Assembly: GCA_947629025.1 (NCBI GenBank)
Contig: CANRCC010000007.1
Span: 1 to 62,069 of the forward strand
Length of the DNA stretch: 62,069 bases
Direction of reading: 5' to 3'
DNA from: an uncultured Bacilli bacterium
GTDB lineage: Bacteria; Bacillota_I; Bacilli_A; RF39; UBA660
Under the pieces are notes generated by a model, which saw only the letters and a program-made list of their open reading frames with translations, ran no database searches and had not been told where the DNA came from. The translations under genes and the position numbers were made by a program. Position 1 is the first letter of the stretch. Each line of letters begins with the position of its first letter. This document shows positions 3,578-61,106 of the stretch, piece after piece.

Positions 3578-3600
3578 TAATATTCCTTTACAGAATATCA
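3578..3600 (-). terminator. Terminator of the MATE-kinase gene
   Basis: TGATATTC and GAATATTA pair around a short loop and are followed by TTTTTTATTT. The hairpin begins at the TGA stop of the MATE-kinase gene, which supports TGA being a real stop here. Confidence 0.75.
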
Positions 3601-5574
3601 TTTTTTTATTTTTTTAATATAATCACAAATTATTTCAGCAGTTTTTTCTTTTCCAATACTTGAATCTATACATAAATCATAATTTTCATAGTTACCCCAA
3701 GTTTGTCCTGAAATAATTTCATAATAACTTGCTCTATTTTTATCTGATTTTTCTATATTTCTTTTTGCTTTAATTTTGGTATCACCATACATTTCCATTA
3801 TATTTTTAATTCTATAATCCATTGGTGCATAGATAAATATTTTTACTAAATTTTTATTATCTTTTAATGCATAGTCTGCTGCCCTACCAACTATTACACA
3901 TGAACCTTTATCTGCTATCATTTTAATGACTTTATCTTGTGCTTCAATTGCATATTTAACTGGTGATGTAGTTAAATATAAATCATGTAAAATATCTTTA
4001 TTTCTATTTATATCAGATACAAATTCTTTATCTAAACCACTTTCTTTTGCTGCAAGTGCAGTCATTTCTTTATAATAATATGGTATATTTAATTTTTCTG
4101 AAACAAGTTTTCCAATTGCCTTACCTTGACTACCATGAGTTCTTGCAATAGTAATAATAAAGCCTTGCTTAGAATCTTTTAAATAAATATTTTCATTATT
4201 TTGATCATCTTCTATTTTAAGATTTTTAAAGAAATTTGATACTAGTACTATGCAAACTATAATTCCTAATAAATCTGCAATTGGAGCTGCAATTAAAACA
4301 CCTTTAATACCCATATATTTTGGTAATATTATAACAAGTGGAACAAAGAAAATTAAATCTCTTGTTAAAGATACTATTGCTGATTTTAATGGTTCTCCAA
4401 CTGCTTGGAAAAATATAGAACACATTTTTATTAAACATGTAAAAGTTACAAGCATTAAAAATAGTCTAAAAGTTAATTTTGCAAACTGCATATATAAACT
4501 TTCATTTGAACCAAATATACCAATAATTATACTTGGATATAATTCAAATAATATAGTTGATATAAATCCAATAATAAATGATATAATTACAACTTTTTTA
4601 AATGTTTCTTTTACTCTACTTATATTTTTTGCTCCATAATTATAACCTAATATAGGTTGTGCACCTAAAATAATTCCAACTATAATATTTATTACAATTG
4701 AAAATACTTTCATTGTTATACCTATAACAGCAATTGGTATATCTATTCCATATTTACTTTGTGCTCCATATTTAGCAAGCATTATATTACATACTAAAGA
4801 AATAATAACTATACTTATTTGTGTAATAAATGTAGAAATACCAAGTTTAATTACATTTTTAAATACTTTAAAATTTATTTTAAAACTATCTTTACATAAT
4901 TTAAAAGTTTTAGTTCTTGTATAGTAAATAATAGAAATAATTAATGATATAAATTGTCCTATAATTGTTGCATATGCTGCTCCTTTTATTCCTAAATCAA
5001 AACAAAATATAAATATAGGATCTAAAATAATATTAACTAATGCTCCTACTGCTGTTGTAGCCATAGAAAATCCAGGTGATCCATCAGCACGAATAACTGC
5101 ATTCATACTATTTGCTAACATATAAATTGGTATTGCTGATAGAATTATTACATAATAATCTCTTGCTAAATTAATACTTTTATTACTAGCACCAAATAAA
5201 TATAATAACTGATCTTTAAAAATAAATCCCAAAATAAGAAATAAAATACTAATGAAAAAAGTTACTAATATACTATTTCCAATAGACTTATGAGCATTTT
5301 TAGTATCTCCTCTACCTTGACATAATGATAAATATGCAGATGCGCCATCTCCAAAACACCATGCAAATGCAAATGCAATAATAGTTATTGGATAAACAAC
5401 ACCAGTCGCAGCATTACCTAAATAACCTAATTTACTATTACCAATAAAAATTTGATCTACTATATTATAAAGTGAACTAATAAGTAATGATAAAATACAT
5501 GGTATAGAAAATTTAGTAAGTAATTTAGATATCTTCTCTTCTCCTAAAAATTTATTATCTTCATGATTTTCCAT
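3598..5574 (-). CDS. MATE-family efflux transporter fused to a cytidylate-kinase-like domain
   Basis: The protein has 658 residues, and the start has a perfect AGGAGG. Residues 1 to about 455 are a complete 12-helix MATE transporter (family length about 450), with the typical KLLTKFSIPCILSLLISSLY entry and QPILGYNYGAKN in the middle; such proteins export drugs or metabolites with sodium or proton counterflow. Residues about 470-658 form a cytidylate-kinase-like domain (Cytidylate_kin2 type): ITIARTHGSQGKAIGK nucleotide loop, YYKEM, and VIVGRAADYAL. Known cytidylate kinases phosphorylate CMP, but this domain may sense or modify a nucleotide to control transport. A leader with a terminator hairpin precedes the gene. 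Intact, no frameshift between domains. Confidence 0.85.
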   Translation of the reverse strand: MENHEDNKFLGEEKISKLLTKFSIPCILSLLISSLYNIVDQIFIGNSKLGYLGNAATGVVYPITIIAFAFAWCFGDGASAYLSLCQGRGDTKNAHKSIGNSILVTFFISILFLILGFIFKDQLLYLFGASNKSINLARDYYVIILSAIPIYMLANSMNAVIRADGSPGFSMATTAVGALVNIILDPIFIFCFDLGIKGAAYATIIGQFISLIISIIYYTRTKTFKLCKDSFKINFKVFKNVIKLGISTFITQISIVIISLVCNIMLAKYGAQSKYGIDIPIAVIGITMKVFSIVINIIVGIILGAQPILGYNYGAKNISRVKETFKKVVIISFIIGFISTILFELYPSIIIGIFGSNESLYMQFAKLTFRLFLMLVTFTCLIKMCSIFFQAVGEPLKSAIVSLTRDLIFFVPLVIILPKYMGIKGVLIAAPIADLLGIIVCIVLVSNFFKNLKIEDDQNNENIYLKDSKQGFIITIARTHGSQGKAIGKLVSEKLNIPYYYKEMTALAAKESGLDKEFVSDINRNKDILHDLYLTTSPVKYAIEAQDKVIKMIADKGSCVIVGRAADYALKDNKNLVKIFIYAPMDYRIKNIMEMYGDTKIKAKRNIEKSDKNRASYYEIISGQTWGNYENYDLCIDSSIGKEKTAEIICDYIKKIKK

Positions 5575-5579
5575 TTTTT

Positions 5580-5681
5580 ACCTCCTTTTTATGGTTTATC
5601 ACATCATGTCCTAGCAATTTAGGGCAAAAAAAATGTGCGCAAAAACTTGTCTTGTTTTTACGCACTATTGCTGGATCAGAC
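5580..5681 (-). promoter_or_regulatory. Attenuator leader of the MATE gene, candidate riboswitch (guanidine-IV/mepA-like?)
   Basis: Between a strong promoter and the MATE start lies a short leader with a near-perfect 12-bp hairpin (5635-5665: GTGCGTAAAAAC/GTTTTTGCGCAC) followed by eight T, a terminator inside the 5' UTR. Flanking segments ATCC-AGCAAT (rc of 5667-5676) and ATTGCT-A-GGA (rc of 5609-5618) can pair around it, with single-base bulging. The upstream gene has its own terminator at 5737-5760, so this hairpin belongs to the MATE transcript. Guanidine-IV riboswitches are known to precede MATE (mepA) genes in Bacillota; I cannot confirm the consensus, so the class is a hypothesis. Confidence 0.5.
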
Positions 5682-5687
5682 TAATTA

Positions 5688-5716
5688 ATTATACAACTTT
5701 TTTAAAATTTTTTCAA
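5688..5716 (-). promoter_or_regulatory. Promoter of the MATE-kinase gene
   Basis: TTGAAA (rc of 5711-5716), exactly 17 bases, then TATAAT (rc of 5688-5693). Start of transcription would fall near 5681, giving a leader of about 105 bases. Confidence 0.7.
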
Positions 5717-60841: not shown

Positions 60842-61106
60842 AATATCCTCCCTAACTAAATAAAAAACAGTTATTATATCCCAAATAAGGGACGAATAAC
60901 TGTTAAATCCGTGGTACCACCCAAATTATCATATTTCTATGATCACTCTTTTGAATAACGCATCAATATCGCGCTTCTTCCTACTATTATTTCAAAAGAA
61001 GAACTCCTTGGTGTTCTTTCATATTAATATTATTATCCATTTTCACCATTTAGGACTCTCTGTAAATAAATCTTAATATTACTTTTCCAAATCAACGTTT
61101 TTGACT
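60842..61106 (-). promoter_or_regulatory. T-box riboswitch, Asn specifier (AAC)
   Basis: The antiterminator sequence GGGTGGTACCACGG (rc of 60909-60922) is the T-box core. The terminator AACAGTTATT/AATAACTGTT with a T run is at 60862-60906. In Stem I the AGAGAG bulge, GGTGAAA distal loop and an AGTA/GAA loop-E pair can be seen; the specifier loop ends GAACA just before CCAA, which pairs with TTGG. The codon followed by A is AAC (rc of 61013-61015). The overlapping GAA could be a second codon, as reported for a clostridial two-codon T-box. Confidence 0.85.

Follow-up and report, generated by a model that had tools for sequence, protein, structure and literature searches.

The MATE efflux gene at positions 3598-5574 (minus strand) of the window, i.e., the whole 62,069-nucleotide stretch of an uncultured Bacilli bacterium that was analyzed here, is preceded by a short leader RNA. 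Judged by sequence comparison, this leader is real and conserved, and belongs to a family of tiny on/off switches that are found in many gut Bacillota, mostly before efflux pumps; the motif family is apparently unreported so far. The reading that we favor, at a probability of roughly 0.7, is that of a compact transcriptional ON switch, in which a ligand-held fold of two short helices, P1 and P2, would block the terminator such that the MATE gene is read through. In broader terms, we lean towards a new riboswitch class of ~32 nt in gut Bacilli and Clostridia, which would respond to one toxic or stress-related compound by turning on MATE, MFS and other genes with the use of two terminators, and of which class 1, located before MATE-kinase fusions, would have a rebuilt loop for a second, related compound. 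If true, an orphan riboswitch on several efflux families would offer a handle on what the pumps export and what induces efflux in gut bacteria.

Architecture of the leader

An earlier note on this DNA had claimed a strong promoter, a leader of about 100 bases and an intrinsic terminator within it, and each of these was indeed found, all on the minus strand. The promoter (5688-5716) consists of TTGAAA (5716-5711) and TATAAT (5693-5688), separated by a 17-nt spacer, and matches the consensus at 11 of 12 positions; the predicted transcript start at ~5682 gives a leader of ~108 nt up to the ATG of the 658-amino acid MATE gene, with a ribosome binding site, AAGGAGG, at 5581-5587. The terminator, T1 (5635-5665), has a 12-bp stem, a 7-nt loop, and a tract of eight U residues (5626-5633), and is one of two terminator-like sites in 4 kb, where 0.4 are expected. 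The 116-nt leader had a minimum free energy (MFE) of -26 kcal/mol (z = -2.68), which was equalled by two of 200 shuffled sequences, and among 18 class-1-type leaders, 5 of the 12 pairs of the T1 stem were changed on both sides.

Absent from the earlier note was a pairing of the extreme 5' end of the RNA, GUCU (5678-5681), with AGAC (5649-5652) inside the terminator loop; this is P1, and inside it lies P2, made of GCA (5669-5671) and UGC (5662-5664). The 5' strand of P1 and both strands of P2 were placed by folding of the isolated 5' segment. The internal loop, in its class-1 form, reads GAUCCA on the 5' side (5672-5677; alignments A5 and A6) and GUAAAAACA on the 3' side (5653-5661), the respective sequences in classes 2/3 being GNGYA and GUAARUCCR. 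The 3' segment, GUAAAAACA, also supplies the greater part of the 5' strand in the T1 stem, T1 overlapping with the 3' portion of the P1-P2 fold. The RNA is expected to start at or next to P1, since the -10 box ends 5 nt upstream of (A/T)GUC in 16 of 17 class-1 leaders.

We infer that a ligand exists and that it turns expression on. In the proposed mechanism, the 5' end of the RNA would fold co-transcriptionally into P1, internal loop and P2 (~32 nt), and this fold would be held by a ligand, for which a small molecule with a link to toxic or xenobiotic stress is the likeliest candidate. The terminator stem could then no longer take up the 3' half, allowing RNA polymerase to enter the MATE gene, whereas the terminator would win when the ligand is absent. 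It is to be noted that the isolated 34-nt P1/P2 segment of the window folds with -3.7 kcal/mol compared to -16.4 kcal/mol for the terminator; since P1 and P2 are so weak alone, the switch would have to act kinetically.

An outer pairing (ATCC-AGCAAT with ATTGCT-A-GGA) had also been put forward in the earlier note as the alternative structure. The pairing itself does appear in the MFE fold, between 5676-5667 and ATTGCTAGGA (5609-5618), but it is nested round an intact terminator; because it encloses the terminator, and because RNA polymerase must already have passed the terminator when the 3' strand of this pairing is synthesized, it is no alternative to the terminator. As a class-1 antiterminator it was rejected, since the leaders' own pairs were no better than mismatched ones (n = 17, permutation p = 0.21). 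In class-1 relatives, GAUCC often pairs with other downstream segments, and the exact outer pairing of the window leader was not seen in those examined. Among class-2 leaders, own partners scored better than mismatched ones in the outer pairing tested (n = 61, p = 2e-4). In several class-2 leaders (e.g., L193, L081 and L209), an outer helix is seen in which the 5' end of the RNA, often UUGAGCA, pairs with UGCUCAA just beyond the terminator.

Covariation in the main class

Classes 2/3, which form the main class, occur across Bacilli and Clostridia with the core P1-GNGYA-P2-GUAARUCCR-P1'; class 2 has the consensus CAAU-GAGUAGC-n-UGCGUAAGUCC-A-AUUG, and precedes MATE and CarD-like genes. Scanning the genome collection for the pattern GAGTAGCN{3,6}TGCGTAAGTCC gave at least 118 stretches, and the matches listed include Ruminococcus, Blautia, Butyrivibrio, Lachnospiraceae, Oscillospiraceae, Clostridium, Anaerovorax and many gut MAGs. 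Two pattern matches in viral contigs were both dismissed as chance by their context. A dispersed repeat of cyanobacteria was observed to end in GAGTAGC-n-TGCGTAAGTCC, i.e., the core letters, without a convincing terminator. Ten of the at least 118 stretches listed are such repeat loci (L158, L172, L179, L181, L184, L191, L203, L229, L230 and L251); these and L270 were dropped before the counts of 137 and 107 given below, and L218 was also dropped before the count of 106.

The P1 strands lay outside the search pattern. The strand 5' of GAGUAGC pairs with the strand one nucleotide past GUCC, and this offset of 1 was the best of three in 144 of the 154 core matches listed. For 76 class-2/3 aptamer sequences among the matches listed, 86.5% of the P1 cells were paired versus 73.0% upon shuffling, and the double-change cells numbered 100 versus 39.1, while slid controls gave 16.5-55.0%. 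Invariance of the core letters in the pattern loci is uninformative, as these letters were fixed by the pattern, and hence a search with an aptamer model of the main class, R2, was used. In the order to which R. albus 8 belongs, R2 matched 26 of 197 genomes at E <= 0.1; at E <= 0.01, the matches were in 25 of 246 genomes in the order of Lachnospiraceae TWA4 and in 10 of 299 in the phylum of Anaerovorax. P1 was paired in 93.9% of the cells of the 66 matches so found (65 distinct), compared to 77.1% when shuffled, and G6, G8, U41, A42, A43, C46 and C47 were identical in all 66, it being noted that R2 favors such matches. The length of P2 varies, and its G-C pair is replaced by A-U in two of the 65 distinct rows of alignment A6 and once in A4 (L144). 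RNAalifold, when applied to A4, recovered P2 and not P1; among the matches listed, 66 of 106 isolated class-2/3 cores had P1 together with P2 in the MFE structure.

Two terminator designs on one core

The same core is combined with two different terminators. The 3' strand of the terminator pairs in T1 with the 3' half of the core, UGCGUAAGUCC; its partner in T2, which was found in Ruminococcus, Blautia and related bacteria, is the 5' half, made of the P1 strand and GAGUAGC (AACGAGUAGCAAU with AUUGCUGCUCGUU). The 154 core matches listed comprise 112 with T1, 31 with T2 and 11 with neither, and deduplication and removal of the cyanobacterial and Bradyrhizobium loci left, among the matches listed, 90, 16 and 1, respectively, of 107. 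When the T1 leaders among the matches listed were considered alone, a 3-bp P1 was present in 86 of 90, where shuffling gave 44.6 on average and 56 at most, and counting only distinct combinations of 5' and 3' strands, in 14 of 18 versus 4.2, a result reached by none of 2000 shuffles. The T2 subset consists of just two P1 combinations, on which covariation of P1 cannot be judged. Since T1 and T2 both destroy the P1-P2 fold, the arrangement follows the logic of an ON switch. Two terminators on one tiny core also provide a clean natural case for the evolution of expression platforms.

The terminator is strong and thermodynamically favored, as would suit a constitutive partial terminator that receives no signal and whose sequence is conserved for another reason. 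This is very unlikely, however, since P1 covaries even though its 5' strand lies outside the T1 stem, and since T2 combines an unchanged core with another stem. Conditional transcription of the MATE gene, which had been proposed from the leader of the window, draws good support from conservation and covariation, and also from the interchangeable use of two terminators. Attenuation through a translated leader peptide is suggested by ATGAGTAGCnnnnATGCGTAA, which constitutes a short open frame in many class-2 leaders, but this explanation is scarcely credible: the frame is broken by spacer lengths of 3 to 8, the second leader of L009 has AAG in place of ATG, class 1 lacks such a frame, and, by inspection, the frame has no ribosome binding site ahead of it.

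Class 1, the type found in the window

The 658-amino acid protein is a MATE efflux protein (MatE, E = 4.1e-38) fused to a cytidylate-kinase-like domain (Cytidylate_kin2 at residues 473-639, E = 2.2e-44) by Pfam, and it scored above the cut-off for the matE subfamily of NCBIfam. The substrate of the kinase-like domain could hint at the compound that the MATE part exports. A search with this protein found it in 33 of 60 related genomes, and its closest homologues have the same leader in the same position, namely AAGUC...AGC-n-UGCGUA followed by a terminator. A covariance model, R1, was built from 10 homologue leaders, and at E <= 0.1 matched 47 of 243 family, 32 of 296 class and 23 of 295 phylum-sample genomes, these samples being overlapping and the weak tail consisting mostly of plain terminators. 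Weak matches (e.g., L106, L108-L111, L132, L134 and L145-L155) were judged to be ordinary terminators or chance, and were left out of the members.

Two leader types, class 1 and class 2, emerged among the R1 matches. Class 1, with the consensus GUC-UGAUCCAGC-n-UGCGUAAAAAC-AA-GAC, was found in 17 genomes, upstream of MATE genes only, and the encoded proteins that were complete enough had a fusion-like length of 612-695 amino acids, Pfam having been run on the protein of the window alone. In the MFE structures of the 17 isolated 5' segments of class 1, P1 was present in 14 and P2 in 16; the segment ends had been placed at the GAC/GCUCAC partner, which favors P1. The MATE proteins of class 1 form one clade (support 100) that adjoins those of classes 2/3 (join 90), as obtained by a quick tree method.

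The window leader resembles classes 2/3 in its closing helix P1 (GUCU/AGAC), in a P2 that begins with G-C and C-G (GCA/UGC), and in a terminator that covers half the core (T1, 5665-5635). Its internal loop, GAUCCA/GUAAAAACA, differs from GNGYA/GUAARUCCR, GUAA alone being common to both. R2 scored the window leader at 11.4 bits (E = 1.9), and thus did not recognize it, and gave 14.5 bits at best on other class-1 leaders; since it misses them, it is position, gene orthology and architecture that tie class 1 to the main class. The R1 hits are no independent proof of this kinship, as R1 was trained on both classes. Class 1 is thus read, from these sequence relationships, as a divergent subtype by descent, to which classes 2/3 are a sister form. 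Since the internal loop is changed, class 1 may have another ligand than classes 2/3, making the pair a candidate case of changed ligand specificity.

Relation to guanidine-IV and other known RNA elements

The guanidine-IV riboswitch, as described in the accessible part of PMC7736828, consists of two hairpins with kissing loops, in which G62, G66, U67 and G72 of the second loop are conserved; from the mutants of these residues reported there, the spacing G-N3-GU-N4-G was inferred. The earlier note had put this forward as a possible identity of the window leader, on the grounds that MATE genes in Bacillota are known targets of the class, and the available text of PMC9788692 does state that guanidine-IV and its variant Gd4v both regulate MATE genes. 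Apart from this gene context, the leader shares with guanidine-IV the participation of the 5' part of the terminator in the sensing fold, and an upstream segment that pairs with the terminator loop. Nevertheless, either identity is extremely unlikely. The two-hairpin pseudoknot, whose 3' hairpin is a terminator in guanidine-IV, was not found in the window leader, which has one hairpin and a 5' pairing, and since the transcript is predicted to start at P1, there is no room for the first hairpin; the sequence at 5665-5655 reads G-TGC-GT-AAAA-A, with an A in place of the last G. Furthermore, the core nucleotides of the motif, a single P1-internal loop-P2 fold, are in the internal loop and the terminator stem and not in an apical loop, the T2 design in classes 2/3 is a further difference, and genes of the sugE type (PF00893) were found in just 5 of 120 genomes of the class and 1 of 149 of the phylum. 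Gd4v is likewise orphan, gut-enriched and in some cases followed by MATE genes, but in the accessible part of PMC9788692 it has two hairpins, an extra hairpin on the terminator, and transaminase genes in more than half of the cases, and neither the structure nor the genes were seen here.

Rfam 15, applied at gathering and permissive thresholds to the window, 15 relatives and R. albus 8, reported nothing but tRNA, T-box and other families with no relation to the leader, and its matches at the motif itself were at the level of chance; none was sensible for the window leader. A Blautia sugE leader (L277) contains the full G-N3-GU-N4-G pattern, AGGCCGUUGAAG, with guanidine-IV features by reading, and a further sugE leader (L276) has most of them; both look like guanidine-IV or its variant, but neither gives a hit in Rfam 15, which probably has no usable model of guanidine-IV. 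Since these two leaders are also unmatched, the negative Rfam result is weak evidence either way regarding guanidine-IV, and the lack of a model hit, named in the earlier note as grounds for refutation, could not decide the matter. A plasmid sugE leader (L120) considered for comparison turned out to be a guanidine-I leader. Elsewhere in the window, a T-box leader is present at 60885-61104 (minus strand, 132 bits).

The HMP-PP (thiS) riboswitch, in the available text of PMC6478431, also has its aptamer embedded in the terminator, but its genes are different, and Rfam 15 riboswitch matches at the present leaders were at chance level at most. No published report of the motif was found by literature searches, in passages of PMC11611296 and PMC12186494, or by term searches in the main text of the surveys PMC11109978 and PMC8632094.

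Downstream genes and a possible protein regulator

The motif recurs before unrelated gene families. The first genes after 137 distinct class-2/3 leaders, among the matches listed, encoded MATE (88), CarD-like (17), a 79-amino acid protein (11), MFS (5), Veg-like (3) and unnamed proteins of 166-169 amino acids (2), with two singletons and nine leaders for which none was found. Clusters were named from Pfam matches of single members (CarD_TRCF_RID, VEG, MFS_1), and the MATE cluster by likeness to the MATE protein of the window and by reading; the 79-amino acid protein had no Pfam or NCBIfam family over the cut-off. Reading of further contexts added more MFS proteins and an ABC exporter-like protein.

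The main rival to the ligand-sensing switch is an RNA-binding protein with antiterminator function, which would recognize the P1-P2 hairpin. RAT antiterminator hairpins, bound by BglG/LicT, are ~30 nt long, have an asymmetric internal loop, and overlap a terminator, although their conserved sequence differs from that of the motif. The layout of the present hairpin, namely its size of ~30 nt, its conserved asymmetric internal loop and its overlap with the terminator, is indeed that of RAT. However, by inspection of the first downstream genes, no constant regulator neighbor was noticed beside the motif, and such a protein would need to have been retained across both Bacilli and Clostridia; we consider this explanation unlikely, and prefer the ligand-sensing switch.

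In one locus (L326, minus strand), two copies of the motif, at 1501-1534 and 1579-1612, lie 44 nt apart before a single MATE gene, and may form a tandem switch. Two copies were also observed per 4-8 kb contig piece in L165, L188, L214, L226, L227, L234 and L238, apparently before different genes, e.g., the 79-amino acid protein and a CarD-like protein, or MATE and a Veg-like protein.
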